This document shows positions 2,815 through 9,260 of a DNA stretch of 64,000 nt, one piece after another (within the stretch, counting starts at the first letter, position 1; every line of letters starts with the position of its first letter). A program made the position numbers and the translations under genes. The stretch lies in assembly GCA_035559815.1 (NCBI GenBank), contig DATMAT010000023.1, positions 248,001 to 312,000 of the forward strand, written 5' to 3'. The stretch comes from Thermodesulfobacteriota bacterium. Its GTDB lineage: Bacteria; Desulfobacterota_D; UBA1144; Nemesobacterales; CSP1-2. Under the pieces are notes generated by a model that made no database searches, was not told the DNA's origin, and worked only from the letters and a program-made list of their open reading frames with translations.

Positions 2815-3064
2815 CAAGCAGGCCAATATTTAGGATTCAGTTCTCAGGGATGAACCAAAATCGCAAACCTAGTATCAGGCACTACTTTTCGAGCGTCGAG
2901 GAAACACAAATAACGTGGGAGATGCTCGATGAGAAAATATTTAATGTTTCAGGGAAGTTAAAGAATATGGGCAAAAAGGGTCAATTGGATAAGTCCCATG
3001 CAAATGAGCATTCTCGCAAACTGCATTGTAATTCATTTAAAACATTCAGGGTTTCGAGGGTGCT

Positions 3065-5621
3065 GTGGAAAGACACTAATTCCCGGAAGGGAATTGAAAC
3101 GGGTGTAGGCGGATCTCGGTAAAATCCTGCTTCATCCGGTGGAAAGACACTAATTCCCGGAAGGGAATTGAAACCTGGGCGCGACGAGCCGTTACCCGTT
3201 CGCGGATGCCGCTGTGGAAAGACACTAATTCCCGGAAGGGAATTGAAACTAAAAATGGGCACTGGGGTTGTATATGCTGTTTATGCGTGGAAAGACACTA
3301 ATTCCCGGAAGGGAATTGAAACGGAAAGCCAAAAAAGCATACCAAGAGAAGATAGCTAAAGCAAGTGGAAAGACACTAATTCCCGGAAGGGAATTGAAAC
3401 ACTTTCACCATACTTTTTTTGTTTCTAGACATGGCATTTGTGGAAAGACACTAATTCCCGGAAGGGAATTGAAACGTAATTCCAAACTCTTCGTACTTTT
3501 GTCATGTTTGTTTTCGTGGAAAGACACTAATTCCCGGAAGGGAATTGAAACTGCTACTTCTTTTAGAAACCACCTTAAATTACTTACGTGGAAAGACACT
3601 AATTCCCGGAAGGGAATTGAAACCTTACAACCAAATCTTTTGCATAATTTCTGCAATAAAGTGGAAAGACACTAATTCCCGGAAGGGAATTGAAACATTC
3701 CATATACTTATCTGCTGACCAACCAGTTGCTTTAGTGGAAAGACACTAATTCCCGGAAGGGAATTGAAACACTAGCCACACCTTCCTGCCAAAACTAGGG
3801 TCAGTCTGTGGAAAGACACTAATTCCCGGAAGGGAATTGAAACATCATACTGGGCTGGTGTTAGCTTTTCTTGTGTATACCGTGGAAAGACACTAATTCC
3901 CGGAAGGGAATTGAAACGAAACTGAATCTTGATTGTATCAAGACTCTTTAGGTTTACGTGGAAAGACACTAATTCCCGGAAGGGAATTGAAACTTCTCGG
4001 CTAGTTGGGCTTGGAGCTTTTCTATCTGATGTGGAAAGACACTAATTCCCGGAAGGGAATTGAAACTTCATGATTGGAAGTCTACATTTGATTTTTCTAT
4101 TATGTGGAAAGACACTAATTCCCGGAAGGGAATTGAAACTTTAATTTTCTTTCTTGTTTATTCATTATACACCTCCGTGGAAAGACACTAATTCCCGGAA
4201 GGGAATTGAAACGTGGCAATATTGCGGCAATATTGCTTTTAGGACTTGGGTGGAAAGACACTAATTCCCGGAAGGGAATTGAAACTTTTTTTCTGCGTTC
4301 TCTAGTCTTTCTGTCGAATACGTGGAAAGACACTAATTCCCGGAAGGGAATTGAAACACGTTTAACCTTGCTGCCACCAAAGGTTGTTGCTGGACTCATG
4401 TGGAAAGACACTAATTCCCGGAAGGGAATTGAAACTTTCCATCTTAGGTTACCTCTCTTTGAAAAATGTCTTGTGGAAAGACACTAATTCCCGGAAGGGA
4501 ATTGAAACGTATTCCCGAACGTAAGTAAAAACTATCCATAATTTGTGGAAAGACACTAATTCCCGGAAGGGAATTGAAACATGAACCGGCAAATCTTCTC
4601 GGCCTTCTCCGGGTTCCAGTGGAAAGACACTAATTCCCGGAAGGGAATTGAAACTGACAAATTGTGTTTTGTCAGGGACAAGACACTTTTTGTGGAAAGA
4701 CACTAATTCCCGGAAGGGAATTGAAACGCTATCAATCATAGACAACGACCTTGATTTCGCTGAAGTGGAAAGACACTAATTCCCGGAAGGGAATTGAAAC
4801 ACCTTTAAAAAAGTCTCTCAGTGTTTTGAAATGCCTTGTGGAAAGACACTAATTCCCGGAAGGGAATTGAAACTTTTATTTTTTGCCACGGAAGGAAGGA
4901 AGACCTACATTTTGTGGAAAGACACTAATTCCCGGAAGGGAATTGAAACATCTTGACCATCGGTGAGTTGCTTCCATCTTCAAGATGGTGGAAAGACACT
5001 AATTCCCGGAAGGGAATTGAAACTGAATTGTGTCGTCATTGAATAGTGGATCATTGGCCATGTGGAAAGACACTAATTCCCGGAAGGGAATTGAAACTTA
5101 AGGTAGTTATCACGTTCCCGATGACTGGATAACCAGGTGGAAAGACACTAATTCCCGGAAGGGAATTGAAACCTAGAACACTTTATTAACCCGTTGTCCA
5201 TCAACCGATCATGTGGAAAGACACTAATTCCCGGAAGGGAATTGAAACAATAAAACACTGTTTGAGATGCTGCAGGACGAGGCTGTGGAAAGACACTAAT
5301 TCCCGGAAGGGAATTGAAACCTCAAGCAAAAATGACCGAACGTGAAACATTGATCGACGTGGAAAGACACTAATTCCCGGAAGGGAATTGAAACGGGGCA
5401 TATCTTCTTCGCTAAAAACTCGTCCTCGCTCATGTGGAAAGACACTAATTCCCGGAAGGGAATTGAAACAACCCAGGATTCAGTCATAAGGTCCACCTCG
5501 ATAAACCCAGTGGAAAGACACTAATTCCCGGAAGGGAATTGAAACATTAGTCTGTTGCAGTTGTCACAGTATTCACACTCTTCTAGTGGAAAGACACTAA
5601 TTCCCGGAAGGGAATTGAAAC
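3065..5621 (+). CRISPR. CRISPR array, 35 repeats and 34 spacers
   Basis: Thirty-five identical 36-bp repeats start at 3065, 3139, 3214, 3287, 3365, 3440 and so on to 5586. The repeat begins GTGGAAAGACACTAATTCCC and ends GGAAGGGAATTGAAAC. Its centre forms a 7-bp hairpin (AATTCCC / GGGAATT around a GGAA loop), and the last 8 bases ATTGAAAC would form the crRNA 5' tag, so transcription is rightward from the cas2 side. Spacers are 35-42 bp, mostly 37-40. I saw no duplicate spacers and no decay within the array, which suggests it is recent or maintained. No spacer was seen to match another part of this window. Many spacers, read as reverse complement, look like the sense strand of coding DNA. Confidence 0.98.
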
Positions 5622-6078
5622 TGAGCAAGGCTAGTGTTTAGGAGTTAGTAGTTAGTGATTAGGGGAATGATTGCGCAGCAGCATTGCTACAAACCGGCTA
5701 GGATTCAATGCCAATATGGCTCGAAGTTATTTCCTAATAACTAAACACCAAACACTAAACACTGCCTTTGGGGGATTGAAACCGAGCAAGGCTAGTGTTT
5801 AGGAGTTAGTAGTTAGTGATTAGGGGAATGAAGGCCCAGCAGCATTGCCACGAACTGGGTAGGATTCAATGCCAATATGGCTGGAAGTTATCTGCTAATA
5901 ACTAAACACTAAACACTGCCTTGGGGAATTGAAACCGAGCAAGGCTAGTGTTTAGGAGTTAGTAGTTAGTGATTAGGAGAATGAAGGCGCAGCAGCATAG
6001 CCACGAACTGGCTAGGATTCAATGCCAATATGGCTCGAAGTTATTTCCTAATAACTAAACACCAAACACTAAAAACCG
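5622..6078 (+). repeat. Three tandem ~155-bp elements capped by CRISPR repeat ends
   Basis: Copies at 5622-5782, 5783-5935 and 5936-6078 each start (C/T)GAGCAAGGCTAGTGTTTAGG, carry a left arm rich in TTAGTAGTTAGTGATTAGG, a ~75-bp centre, and a right arm TAACTAAACACCAAACACTA. The arms are imperfect inverted repeats, so each copy can fold as one long hairpin. Copies 1 and 2 end in GGGGATTGAAAC and GGGGAATTGAAAC, which are 3' ends of the CRISPR repeat. Each element thus sits where a spacer would be. No gene is seen. Confidence 0.85.
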
Positions 6079-6502
6079 TTTTCCAGGATTATAATTCCTT
6101 TATGAATGGGAAATTTGATTTTGAGGATCTAGAAATATACAAGAAATCCATTGATTTCATTAATCGTGTTTATAGAGTAACTAAGAGTTTTCCCAAGGAT
6201 GAGGTATTTGGTTTAACAAGTCAGTTTAGAAGAGCTGCTATATCCATAGCGCTCAACATAGCTGAGGGCTCTGGTAGAATTAAAAGATTAGAGAAGAGAA
6301 GATTTTATGAGATTGCAAGGGCTTCTGTATTTGAATGTATACCTATACTAGAGATATCAAAGTATCAGGGTTATATTGGTGAAGAGGATTGTAAGAAGTT
6401 GCGTGACATTTGTACGGAGCTAGGAAGGATGATAACCGGGCTTATGAAGTCCATCTCGGATAGAAAAAGTTTCTAATTCCCTAAACACCAAACACTAAAA
6501 AC
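6077..6502 (+). mobile_element. Candidate insertion carrying a four-helix-bundle gene
   Basis: A 22-bp direct repeat (starting CTAAACACCAAACACTAAAA) occurs at 6055-6076 and 6481-6502. At 9053-9074 the same flanks occur once with nothing between them, followed by the same TATAAACTGTTTCACGG that follows 6502. The 426-bp difference contains only the four-helix-bundle gene. This reads as an occupied and an empty site, although recombination between repeats could give the same picture. Confidence 0.5.
6102..6476 (+). CDS. Four-helix-bundle protein (23S rRNA IVS / S23 family)
   Basis: 124 residues from the ATG at 6102. An earlier in-frame ATG at 6030 lies inside the repeat element and would add a peptide encoded by the repeat arm. 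FEDLEIYKKS at the start, and QFRRAAISIALNIAEGSGR with its ANIAEG-type motif near residues 45-65, are diagnostic of the family first found in intervening sequences of bacterial 23S rRNA and related to the Avd accessory protein of diversity-generating retroelements. Molecular function is unknown; members form basic pentameric barrels. No reverse transcriptase or template/variable repeat pair is nearby. It lies in a possible insertion between copies of the inverted-repeat arm. Confidence 0.85.
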   Translation: MNGKFDFEDLEIYKKSIDFINRVYRVTKSFPKDEVFGLTSQFRRAAISIALNIAEGSGRIKRLEKRRFYEIARASVFECIPILEISKYQGYIGEEDCKKLRDICTELGRMITGLMKSISDRKSF

Positions 6503-6514
6503 TATAAACTGTTT

Positions 6515-6540
6515 CACGGACACTAATTCCCGGAAGGGAA
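6515..6540 (+). repeat. CRISPR repeat core fragment
   Basis: GGACACTAATTCCCGGAAGG and the following GAAT equal the middle of the 36-bp CRISPR repeat, without the first bases and without the TGAAAC end. It is joined directly to the GGGATAGG low-complexity block. An identical junction occurs at about 9089-9115. Confidence 0.7.
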
Positions 6541-6700
6541 TGGGATAGGAATGTAGGGGATAAGGGATAGGGGATAGGGGATAGGGGATAAGTGAAAAAG
6601 ACCAAACTAGTCCGTATTATCCCCAGTCCCTAATCCCTTGTCCCTTGTCCCTAGTTCCTAGTCCCTAGTCCCTAATGTGTCTCTAATCCCTAATATTGTG
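6541..6700 (+). repeat. GGGGATA / TCCCTAAT low-complexity inverted repeat
   Basis: Tandem GGGATAG-type units at 6541-6592 are followed, after a ~30-bp unique loop, by tandem TCCCTA/TCCCTTG units at 6625-6700. The two blocks are roughly complementary and would form a long imperfect hairpin. The block precedes a four-helix-bundle gene, similar C-rich sequence follows that gene (7091-7165), and a near-identical block lies at 9116-9260. Confidence 0.75.
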
Positions 6701-7202
6701 CTAAAATAGGCCATAATATGGCTGACATAAAGAGCTTTAATGACTTATTGGTTTGGCAAAAAGCACATAGGCTCTTTCTAGAAATCGTTAAATTAGTAGA
6801 AAAGTTACCTAAAAATAGGGTAGCGATGGTTATATCAGATCAAATCTTGAGGTCGGTCAGTTCAATAAGTGCAAATATAGCCGAAGGGTATGGAAGGAGA
6901 GGCAAGGATTATGAAAGGTTTCTGACGATAGCCAGAGGCTCGACAACGGAAAGTGAGGATTGGTTGATAAAGTTGAAAGATTTAGGATTGATGGAGGAAT
7001 ATATTTATAAGCAGATTATGGGAGAATGTGAGGAGATAATTAGAATGATAAATGGTTTGTTAAGTAGTTTAAGAAAGCAGAGGGAATAAATCCTGATTCC
7101 TATATCCCATGTCCCCAGTCCCATATCCCTAGTCCCTATTGCCTAATGTGTCCCTAATCCCTAATATTGTGCTAAATGAGCCATAAGATGGTTGACATAA
7201 AG
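6671..7202 (+). repeat. ~61-bp direct repeat pair flanking the second four-helix gene
   Basis: The left copy (6671-6732) and right copy (7142-7202) differ at only a few positions. Both read CCTAATGTGT...AATATTGTGCTAAA...ATGG(C/T)TGACATAAAG. The left copy includes the start codon of the gene at 6718. The right copy carries the same start, but it runs into TGA after five codons (M-V-D-I-K). This is a duplicated gene start, left by tandem duplication and deletion or by insertion. Confidence 0.75.
6718..7089 (+). CDS. Four-helix-bundle protein (IVS / S23 family), second copy
   Basis: 123 residues. FNDLLVWQKAHRLFLEIVKL at the start and SISANIAEGYGRRG near residue 60 mark the four-helix-bundle family; this copy is of the F-x-D-L-x-V-W-Q-K-A type and only distantly similar to the copy at 6102. 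Function is unknown. It is framed by GGGATA/TCCCTA low-complexity sequence and by the 61-bp direct repeats, one of which overlaps its start codon. No strong Shine-Dalgarno is seen. Placement inside repeats resembles how these genes sit in rRNA intervening sequences. Confidence 0.85.
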   Translation: MADIKSFNDLLVWQKAHRLFLEIVKLVEKLPKNRVAMVISDQILRSVSSISANIAEGYGRRGKDYERFLTIARGSTTESEDWLIKLKDLGLMEEYIYKQIMGECEEIIRMINGLLSSLRKQRE

Positions 7203-7331
7203 TGAGATAGTTATGCGGTGGCGTTCCTATTTGCTCTCCCGGATTAAATGCCGATCCGGCACCAGGTTATTCCCCTTGGACGTTGATACACTGGCGAAAC
7301 AATGTATCCTTATAGTAAGGGAGTAAGGAAA

Positions 7332-7571
7332 ATGCTCGCCAAAAAGACATCTAAAAACCAGCTCACCTTACCCAAAGAAATAGTCAAAGAATTCCCGGAT
7401 ACCGAGTATTTTGACGTTCAGGTCAAGGGTAGAACTATAGTGCTTACCCCGGTAAGGGTAAGTGCTGAAACCGATCTCCTCGAAGAAATTAGAGATAAAA
7501 TGGAGAAGCTAGGTATTGCAGAGAAGGACGTAACTGAAGCCATCAAATGGGCAAGAAGAAAAGCAAGATAA
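7332..7571 (+). CDS. AbrB/SpoVT-type antitoxin
   Basis: 79 residues from the ATG at 7332, which follows AAGGAAA; an upstream in-frame ATG at 7302 is also possible. The SKNQLTLPKEIVKEF stretch and the following strand with VKGRTIVLTPV form a swapped-hairpin AbrB DNA-binding domain. The C-terminal helical tail (LLEEIRDKMEKLGI...AIKWARRK) is where such antitoxins clamp their toxin. The PIN toxin gene starts 25 bp before its stop, a translationally coupled toxin-antitoxin arrangement, so autoregulation is expected. It lies between copies of the CRISPR-trailer repeat. Confidence 0.8.
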   Translation: MLAKKTSKNQLTLPKEIVKEFPDTEYFDVQVKGRTIVLTPVRVSAETDLLEEIRDKMEKLGIAEKDVTEAIKWARRKAR

Positions 7572-7972
7572 AGGTTGTTCTTGATACAAATGTTCTGGTA
7601 TCGGCGCTCCTTTTCAAGAAAGAAACATCCAAGATAGTAGCTTTATGGAAGAGTGGAAAAATAGTGCCGGTACTTTCTAAAGAAATTTTTGACGAGTTCA
7701 AAAGAGTCCTTGAGTACCCGAAATTTGCACTCACCAAAAACGAGATAAGTCATCTTATCCTCGAAGAGGTTCTTCCCTTCTTTGAAGTTATAGAAGTAAA
7801 AACCAGTATCAAGGGTATATGTAAAGACCTCGATGATGATAAGTTCATCTCATGTGCTCTCTCCGCCAAAGCTAGATTCGTAGTCAGCGGGGATAAAGAC
7901 TTATGGAGCCTTAAGAGCTTCAAATCAGTGAGAATTATCAGGCCTTCAGATTTATTAGACATTTTCTTGTGA
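7547..7972 (+). CDS. PIN-domain toxin (COG1569-like)
   Basis: 141 residues. VVLDTNVLVSALLF gives the first catalytic Asp at the start of the PIN fold. DEFKRVLEYPKF supplies the second acidic region, and CKDLDDDKFISCALSA plus VSGDKDLWSL give the remaining acidic residues. PIN toxins are Mg-dependent ribonucleases that typically cut tRNA, rRNA or mRNA. The gene overlaps the AbrB-type antitoxin by 25 bp, so the two form a type II toxin-antitoxin module. The length is normal for this PIN subfamily and the acidic residues appear intact. Confidence 0.85.
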   Translation: MGKKKSKIKVVLDTNVLVSALLFKKETSKIVALWKSGKIVPVLSKEIFDEFKRVLEYPKFALTKNEISHLILEEVLPFFEVIEVKTSIKGICKDLDDDKFISCALSAKARFVVSGDKDLWSLKSFKSVRIIRPSDLLDIFL

Positions 7973-7985
7973 AAAAGCCTGAGAG

Positions 7986-8113
7986 GTCAGCGTTTAGAAA
8001 TTAGTGGTTAGGGAAATAATGATTAAGTATCACCCCACATCCTGGCTTGCATTTGACGACGATGTGACAAGAGGTGATTTCCTAAAAACTAAACATCAAA
8101 CACTAAAAACCGT
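7986..8113 (+). repeat. Diverged member of the inverted-repeat element family
   Basis: CGTTTAGAAATTAGTGGTTA forms a left arm and CCTAAAAACTAAACATCAAA a right arm, as in the elements at 5622-6078. The ~70-bp centre is unrelated to theirs. Members of the family thus share arms, not cores. Confidence 0.6.
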
Positions 8114-8210
8114 CTTCGAGCCTACAATATCCGTAAGGGAATTTTTTGACTCCGGTTCTACGGAGTATATACTTATGGTAATACCGGATTCCTTTTTTGG
8201 AGAATTTGCC

Positions 8211-8447
8211 ATGTCCAAGCTTCTCTCCCTGAAATTACAGGATGAAGTGTTTAAAGAGGCTGAAGAAATTCTTAGGCTGAATCGGAAGAGGAGGAACTCC
8301 TACTTTAACGAGGCTATAAATCTTTACAATAAACTCTGGAAAAGAAAGCTTCTCAAAAAATCCTTAACCGAAGAATCGAGGCTGATTGCCGATGAATCCC
8401 TCAGCATTTTAGAGGCATTTGAATTGCTCGAAGACGAACTGGATTAG
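8211..8447 (+). CDS. mazE: MazE-like ribbon-helix-helix antitoxin
   Basis: 78 residues from the ATG at 8211, preceded by GGAG nine bases upstream. The longer open frame from 8004 is mostly repeat-element sequence and is not used. LSLKLQDEVFKEAEEILRLN at the start fits a ribbon-helix-helix strand and helix, followed by a basic helical region and an acidic tail (LSILEAFELLEDELD) suited to wrapping the toxin. The mazF-type gene starts 6 bp downstream, so this is a type II pair and probably autoregulated. Confidence 0.75.
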   Translation: MSKLLSLKLQDEVFKEAEEILRLNRKRRNSYFNEAINLYNKLWKRKLLKKSLTEESRLIADESLSILEAFELLEDELD

Positions 8448-8453
8448 TAACTG

Positions 8454-8792
8454 ATGGAGATCAAGAAATGGCATGTCTATCTTGCTGACCTAAACCCAAG
8501 AATAGGAACAGAACCCGGAAAGGTCCGGCCGGTAGTCGTTATTCAAACAGATCTTCTTAACGGATTACATCCTTCGACAGTTATATGCCCTGTGACCACT
8601 AAGGTACAGCCGAAGGCACGTTTCTTAAGAGTACATCTAGTTTCCGGGGAAGCCGGATTAAAAGAAAAGTCGGACATTATGGTGGACCAAATTCGAGCCA
8701 TTGATAATCGTCGTTTAATTAAACATCTCGGTAAAATTTCTCGTAAAAGCTCGGTTAAGTTGACCGAGAATTTGAGAGTTCTGCTAGCATAA
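8454..8792 (+). CDS. mazF: MazF/PemK-type endoribonuclease toxin
   Basis: 112 residues, the usual MazF length. The start has HVYLADLNPRIGTEPGKVRP, matching the family pattern G-D-(I/L)-x(n)-G-x-E-x-x-K-x-R-P-V-V. VICPVTTKV and a later DIMVDQIRAIDNRRL are the other conserved blocks, with the catalytic Arg (KVRP) and the Thr of the second block present. MazF cleaves single-stranded RNA at short sequence motifs. It follows its antitoxin by 6 bp. The module lies between the CRISPR trailer and the remnant repeat at 8898. Confidence 0.9.
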   Translation: MEIKKWHVYLADLNPRIGTEPGKVRPVVVIQTDLLNGLHPSTVICPVTTKVQPKARFLRVHLVSGEAGLKEKSDIMVDQIRAIDNRRLIKHLGKISRKSSVKLTENLRVLLA

Positions 8793-8897: not shown

Positions 8898-9260
8898 GAA
8901 GAAAAACTTCTAATTCCCGCAGGGAATTGAAACCGAGCAAGGCTAGTGTTTAGGAGTTAGTGGTTAGTGATTAGGGGAATGAAGGCGCAGCAGCATTGCT
9001 ACAAACTGGCTAGGATTCAATGCCTATATGGCTCGAAGTTATTTCCTAATAACTAAACACCAAACACTAAAAACTATAAACTGTTTCACGGACACTAATT
9101 CCCGGAAGGGAATGGGTTAGGAATGTAGGGGATAAGGGATAGGGGATAGGGGATAAGTGAAAAAGACCAAACTAGTCCGTATTATCCCCAGTCCCTAATC
9201 CCTTGTCCCTTGTCCCATGTCCCTAGTTCCTAGTCCCTAATGTGTCTCTAATCCCTAATA
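8898..9260 (+). repeat. Degenerate CRISPR repeat plus fourth element copy and low-complexity block
   Basis: A 36-bp degenerate CRISPR repeat (8898-8933, ending CGCAGGGAATTGAAAC) is followed at once by another copy of the ~140-bp element (8934-9074). Then come a CRISPR repeat core (about 9089-9115) and the GGGATA/TCCCTA block to 9260. 8934-9260 is collinear with 5936-6695, except that the 426 bp holding the first four-helix gene are absent. The gap 8793-9315 holds nothing else recognisable. Confidence 0.85.

Follow-up and report, generated by a model that had tools for sequence, protein, structure and literature searches.

Between 3 and 9.3 kb of the analysed window (the whole 64,000-nt stretch of the Thermodesulfobacteriota genome termed G000 here) lies a cluster of small repeated elements that starts at the end of a CRISPR array, beside a cas4–cas1 fusion and cas2 (Table 1). 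The sequence from 5628 to 6076 consists of three tandem gene-less hairpin copies (A1, A2 and A3) of one element. In copies A1–A5, a left arm (TAGTGTTTAG...GATTAGG) is followed by a loop of ~70 nt and a right arm (CCTAATAACTAAACACCAAACACTA), and the fold of A3 beats 200 of 200 shuffles (z −2.8). Gene 1, with no other ORF and no transposase in its unit, is situated between the CRISPR array and toxin–antitoxin genes, and not in an rRNA gene. The toxin–antitoxin modules stand among the element copies at 7302–7972 and 8211–8792, one being MazE-like with a PIN partner and the other PemK/MazF-like with a small ORF preceding it. In the gene 2 region (6718–7202), 87-nt direct repeats flank the gene and are followed by a truncated copy of the gene's own start; this region is a decayed tandem copy.

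Table 1. Features of the element cluster, numbered from the first nucleotide of the window
Feature	Position	Strand	Remarks
CRISPR array	3063–5621	+	Repeat GTGGAAAGACACTAATTCCCGGAAGGGAATTGAAAC; neighbourhood of the cluster
Gene-less hairpin element A1	5628–5772	+	Left arm TAGTGTTTAGGAGTTAGTAGTTAGTGATTAGG, right arm CCTAATAACTAAACACCAAACACTA
Gene-less hairpin element A2	5789–5923	+	
Gene-less hairpin element A3	5942–6076	+	Right arm contains the first 22-bp repeat (6055–6076)
Junction missing the left arm of the gene 1 copy	6077–6101	+	Compared with L068; ~50–60 nt lost
Gene 1, S23/IVS-type four-helix-bundle gene	6102–6476	+	124 aa; PF05635; 82% amino-acid identity to L068
Right arm of gene 1 element	6481–6502	+	Second 22-bp repeat
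Hairpin B	6543–6705	+	Left arm GGGATAGGGGATAGG..., right arm ...CCCTAGTCCCTAATCCC; upstream of gene 2
Gene 2, second PF05635 four-helix-bundle gene	6718–7089	+	
Element B right arm and truncated gene 2-like start	7090–7202	+	Gene 2-like start at 7174–7202
Diverged gene-less element A5	7984–8116	+	~70% to other copies
Gene-less element A4	8940–9074	+	Right arm with the third 22-bp copy (9053–9074), the claimed empty site
Duplicate of the segment 3′ of gene 1	9075–9260	+	TATAAACTGTTTCACGG, CRISPR-repeat remnant, hairpin B

An identical 22-bp sequence (CTAAACACCAAACACTAAAAAC) occurs at 6055–6076, 6481–6502 and 9053–9074, and TATAAACTGTTTCACGG stands directly 3′ of both 6502 and 9074; the three copies, their positions and the shared flanks are thus exactly as the sequence-only reading of this DNA had described them. 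Whole-genome similarity searches, on which our genome-wide repeat counts for the 22-bp and element A family are based, returned, beyond these, only copies nearby and a small number of dispersed, incomplete ones, and because the matches are confined in this way, the 22-bp identity is not a matter of chance. It represents the terminal part of the right arm of the gene-less elements. Upstream, a repeat search of the window revealed a family of 175-nt repeats at 5589, 5750, 5903 and 8901 (91% identity between 5589–5763 and 8901–9075), and the downstream flanks are repeated as well, in a 122-nt pair at 93% and a 135-nt pair at 96%. Over 153 nt, A1 and A3 differ at 9 positions, A1 and A4 at 7, and A3 and A4 at 6; since the three are about equidistant, the upstream match of the occupied and the 'empty' site is a match within a repeat family and does not mark one locus. 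The sole stretch that the two sites have in common in particular is the segment from the right arm to hairpin B. A further gene-less element A lies away from the array, at ~111391–111541 of contig C8 (L014), and keeps a CRISPR-like AATTGAGACGGGGCAAGGC at its left end.

Against PF05635 (cut-off 33.8), gene 1 scores 121.2 bits and gene 2 scores 110.6 bits. The structural model of gene 1 (mean pLDDT 93.5) contains four helices and matches 2GSC (TMq 0.83–0.89, E 7e-8) and 2RLD, and a profile match reaches E 1.6e-38; by family score and by structure, the gene between the repeats encodes a four-helix bundle like the solved members. A more distant match (TM about 0.75–0.77) is Avd of diversity-generating retroelements, which has the same fold; however, the bAvd model scores 32.1, below its cut-off of 40, and PF00078 had no match in G000, so a reverse transcriptase was rejected as the mover in this genome. 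G000 encodes eight PF05635 proteins, most of them outside the cluster, and all eight genes sit amid 7-base words of their own. The phage collection searched yielded no match.

The history of the locus can be read from a relative, G005, which belongs to another genus of the same family and carries at locus L068 an orthologue of gene 1 (82% amino-acid identity). With dN 0.095 and dS 0.99 between the two, the four-helix protein is under purifying selection. Around the L068 gene, too, copies of this element are clustered in tandem, and the cluster again adjoins the end of a CRISPR array, one with a different repeat. There, the order is inverted left arm (GCTAGTGTTTGGATGTTAGTTTTTAGTG), gene and right arm, and in the RNA fold the arms pair around the whole ORF in a 17-bp stem, the total fold energy of this gene-carrying element being not unusual relative to shuffles (z −1.5). 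Aligned with L068, the window copy is devoid of the left arm, and thus, other than its orthologue, has no terminal inverted repeats around the ORF; it is as a result of this loss, presumably through deletion, that the right arms of gene 1 and A3 look like 22-bp direct repeats. A second L068 copy (1296–1495) retains both arms together with the first and last parts of the gene, the middle being absent, and by its sequence is visibly a gene-less element in the making, formed by internal deletion.

These observations bear directly on the proposal that a 426-bp unit, consisting of the gene and one 22-bp arm, was inserted into the right arm of a gene-less element, or swapped there through site-specific recombination, with the copy at 9053 representing an unused target. 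The geometry of the three 22-bp copies is exact, and a similar hairpin–gene–right-arm order recurs at L108, L112, L115, L120 and L151. However, in G005 the inverted left arm of the orthologue is present at the corresponding place of the cluster, arms at most loci of the family are inverted and not direct, and in the Nostoc group both arms are found inside the inserts, which makes this scenario quite improbable. The comparison with relatives, which the sequence-only reading had itself named as a refuting test and in which the gene-containing form could emerge as the older one and the 'empty' form as a product of deletion, came out against an insertion pair in the window, on the basis of the orthologue with its inverted left arm inside the cluster and of the neighbouring copy with an internal deletion of the gene. 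A 426-bp insertion unit is therefore probably wrong, the real unit being arm–gene–inverted arm, as at L068 and in the Nostoc inserts, and nothing in the data calls for a circular intermediate made of gene and arm.

Instead, we consider it likely, with good confidence, that gene 1 belongs, as a damaged copy, to a class of small mobile cassettes, that its left arm has been deleted, and that the gene-less copies are not unused targets. Each such cassette would consist of one S23/IVS-type four-helix-bundle ORF between two inverted arms of imperfect 7-base repeats, the arms belonging to the mobile unit, and the window would hold a cassette and its gene-less relatives as a tandem cluster at the end of the CRISPR array. 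Internal deletion, or else recombination between right arms, would give rise to the gene-less copies, including the one at 9 kb. Accordingly, 9053–9074 is better explained as a gene-less relative or a deletion product than as an empty target; deletion or arm-to-arm recombination is its likely origin, and it may never have held the gene. In the latter variant, to which we assign a real yet less than even chance, the 9-kb copy would be an independent gene-less hairpin, and the segment downstream a segmental duplication joined via right-arm recombination. In its favour, A4 is about equidistant from A1 and A3, and on its 5′ side lies a degenerate CRISPR repeat that is more like the one in G005 than that of the local array, but the A4 right arm and downstream segment are close to the gene 1 copy, and loss of the gene between right arms would give the same arrangement. 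As it concerns a single copy, this variant can hold alongside the main explanation given for the cassettes.

Heptamer arms around members of the family were analysed at 69 loci from many bacterial and archaeal phyla, with windows from the same loci as controls. Self-similarity at period 7 (≥0.60 over 35 nt) characterizes 62% of the 138 flanks and 2.4% of the control windows, the excess being located at lags 7 and 14 and almost nowhere else. Upstream and downstream flanks are inverted-complementary above the 99th percentile of same-locus controls at 47 of the 69 loci. The complementarity score amounts to 18.9 within a locus and to a mean of 9.8 for mismatched partners, which implies that each cassette has its own word, common to both arms. 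A sample from the phylum of G000, not chosen by similarity, gave comparable values, with period 7 in 64% versus 3.6% and inverted arms at 21 of 28 loci; both window genes are among the few in this sample that have no inverted arms, which fits the lost left arm. Among PF05635 genes, roughly one quarter to one third lack strong arms, and some of these members may be domesticated. In Bacteroidetes, a four-helix cassette is repeatedly found just upstream of an apparent fumarate reductase/succinate dehydrogenase iron–sulfur subunit gene (L097, L102, L103, L108, L110, L112, L115, L117 and L120).

Clean occupied and empty sites come from plasmids of the Nostoc group, in which the inserts measure about 420–500 bp, arms included. 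At site X, orf441 and orf288 lie 3 nt apart in pNsp_b, pC052_A, p057_H and pNsp_c, and are separated by a 419-nt cassette with both arms in pNsp_a and pC052_D. At site Y, pNsp_c carries a 503-nt cassette with a 3-bp duplication (ATG), and other plasmids have an overlapping stop/start or a gap of a few nt. The TraM site spans 496 nt when occupied versus 52 nt, and the nrdB–nrdA site 497 nt versus 40 nt, with no clear target duplication at site X or at the TraM and nrd sites. Duplications being absent or 3 bp long, cassette ends were set by the comparison of occupied and empty sites only. The cassettes of pNsp_a and pC052_D differ at 3 of 417 positions (0.7%), and their flanking ORFs at 33 of 440 and 23 of 284 (about 8%); as the element is far less diverged than its flanks, it arrived after the surroundings had diverged, at the same site, and the sequences therefore point to independent insertion or to a transfer limited to the element. 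The same tendency is seen at the gmd–fcl site of two genera, where the four-helix genes are 82.5% identical and the flanks 73%. Two other candidates were discarded: in Calothrix, plasmids H1 and H2 have a longer identical segment in common, which makes the apparent recent transposition a duplication of a plasmid segment, and Dolichospermum is not a clean empty site relative to Anabaena sp. 90, because another palindrome is present there. Gene-less heptamer hairpins or tracts stand at L174 (1289–1593) and L180 (755–836), intergenic sites that are occupied by full cassettes in other plasmids of Nostoc and Pseudanabaena.

Comparative evidence thus supports the mobility of S23/IVS-type cassettes, and of the earlier proposal it is this part that stands, through the clean occupied and empty sites of the Nostoc plasmids, and the 426-bp unit of gene plus one repeat that does not. 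Arms and gene are inserted together, gene-less derivatives form by internal deletion, and insertion spares host genes. The steps observed comprise the family-wide arm structure, the presence and absence of cassettes at the level of strains, the internal deletion in a relative, and the purifying selection that acts on the protein.

Considering that clusters are found at the ends of CRISPR arrays in both G000 and G005, we also asked how well the four-helix gene would fit a CRISPR accessory gene, with arms that represent leader or array debris. PF05635 is named in a figure legend of a CRISPR-linkage survey (PMC10910872), and a cassette lies between cas6 and cas4 in Anabaena sp. 90 and Pseudanabaena galeata. 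Nevertheless, the cas6–cas4 site is empty in relatives, most of the eight genes of this genome are elsewhere, and cassettes occupy many other sites, so that such a role is very improbable. Remnants of CRISPR repeats occur within the cluster at 6512–6553, 8898–8939 and 9084–9125, the one at 8898 (CTTCTAATTCCCGCAGGGAATTGAAAC) being closer to the G005 repeat than to the adjoining array; a likeness between the sequence upstream of gene 1 and such a remnant was considered a chance match.

A mover acting in trans is another alternative, in which the gene itself would be immobile and the palindromes would be carried by a Y1 transposase (HUH, RAYT-type). Enzymes of the HUH type act on hairpin ends without duplicating the target, and at least two Y1_Tnp genes were found in 10 of 61 genomes (G000–G006, G020, G058 and G060), all of which have PF05635, that is, in 10 of 11 genomes with the family versus 0 of 50 without it. 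However, shared ancestry confounds the correlation, as 7 of the 10 genomes come from a single family, and the 20 Y1_Tnp genes examined have no heptamer arms, being accompanied by short inverted repeats of their own or by none; we therefore regard this alternative as unlikely. At L187–L199 (e.g. L194, L195 and L188), the ORFs of RAYT-type genes are directly bordered on both sides by short inverted repeats (GGGGTCAGGCATGCATATTGAC; AAAAGGGTTGCGTCCCC). REP/RAYT systems and MITEs resemble the cassettes as small palindromic mobile units with gene-less derivatives, but cassettes have no transposase in the unit, their target duplications are absent or 3 bp long, and the RAYT genes examined have no heptamer arms.

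The closest known counterparts are the intervening sequences (IVS) of 23S rRNA genes in Leptospira and Coxiella, which encode the same protein family within terminal inverted repeats that enclose the ORF in one stem, are about 430–500 nt long and sporadic, and are thought to have moved horizontally, as are the cassettes (PMC4990558). In Coxiella, the IVS with its S23 ORF has 28-bp terminal inverted repeats, and its mobility has only been hypothesized (PMC4990558). Unlike these IVS, the cassettes described here lie between genes or inside protein genes and not in rRNA, their arms are made of period-7 words that vary by element, and empty sites are found at the strain level. The heptameric G-rich repeats (STRR) of Xanthomonas and Nostoc, often inverted pairs in intergenic regions (PMC4692102), share with the cassette arms the 7-base words and this arrangement, and the solved relative XCC0516 (2GSC) comes from Xanthomonas campestris, a member of an STRR genus. 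Neither 'S23' nor 'helix bundle' appears in PMC4692102, and we found no earlier description in the open-access literature that joins an S23 gene with heptamer arms. Our data suggest that the heptamer repeats known for a long time from bacterial genomes are in part the termini of such cassettes or what is left of them. The movement of S23/IVS sequences has been an open question ever since their discovery in 23S rRNA. It can now be tested directly, because the inverted period-7 arms define the ends, pairs of strains that differ in the presence of the cassette can be named, and the distribution is wide. As to mechanism, the arms may act as ends through hairpin pairing, in DNA or in RNA, with an arbitrary word and a fixed period, and the four-helix protein, which is pentameric in solved relatives, could recognize the heptamer arms, perhaps with one heptamer per protomer.

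The cassette class to which gene 1 belongs is widespread, being located elsewhere in intergenic gaps or out of frame inside essential protein genes. A four-helix gene within a larger, continuous host ORF extending at least 150 nt on both sides (a nested cassette) was identified at 25 of 105 loci, a proportion inflated by the retrieval of 80 of the 105 with a single nested protein as query, and hence biased towards its relatives; a single query was used because no stretch among 13 diverse proteins was conserved enough for a profile scan of contigs. In the phylum sample, nested cassettes account for approximately 1 in 30. The host frame is offset by 2 from the four-helix frame in all 25 cases, and never by 1. 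Nested loci include L096 (758–3733), L114 (1144–3423), L143 (1124–4255), L140 (71–4303), L081 (1421–3961) and 20 more, and the hosts are Eco57I/MmeI-type methylases, where the insert lies just before the motif DPACGSGH, DUF1156 methylases, helicases, Mfd, the large subunit of carbamoyl-phosphate synthase (CarB) and leucyl-tRNA synthetase (LeuRS). When aligned to the solved proteins, the host LeuRS and CarB show ~145 and ~160 additional residues, respectively, each at a single point. Shuffling of synonymous codons, with protein and codon usage kept, predicts 55.5 host-frame stops where 0 are seen, although the definition of a nested cassette itself demands their absence; independent support comes from the two flanks, which code for portions of a single known protein. 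With 17% ILMFVWYC versus 33–35% in host and four-helix proteins, the peptide of the shifted frame is a hydrophilic linker, with the composition that a soluble linker should have.

Nested and free forms are intermixed on the tree, with at least 13 changes between them. Taken as a whole, we lean towards viewing heptamer-arm cassettes as a mobile class that came repeatedly to the same sites, and that can reside inside essential genes by dual coding, with one frame for its own protein and another that supplies the host protein with an innocuous hydrophilic linker. An out-of-frame gene of ~120 codons, across which the host frame stays open, seems to be tolerated by LeuRS, CarB, Mfd and many methylases. 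Should the hosts be made at full length, this would amount to a dual-coding strategy for a mobile gene, and we know of none elsewhere. Rickettsia palindromic elements (RPE) are palindromic insertions tolerated in protein genes, whose frame they leave open, and have no gene of their own. Compared by description, RPE and nested cassettes both keep the host frame open, but the cassette also encodes a conserved protein in another frame. The copies in the window are intergenic and so do not form in-frame inserts of this kind; 25 related loci outside the window do. In the Treponema metagenome-assembled genome, which may be incomplete, the one clear LeuRS is the interrupted one, and a second, weak match lies in a 936-aa ORF. 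The interrupted LeuRS (L096), in its alignment to solved LeuRS, also displays apparent in-frame gene-less heptamer inserts at residues about 250–261 and 800–840, which read KGLGTGDWGLG and PSPQSPVPSPQTPQS.
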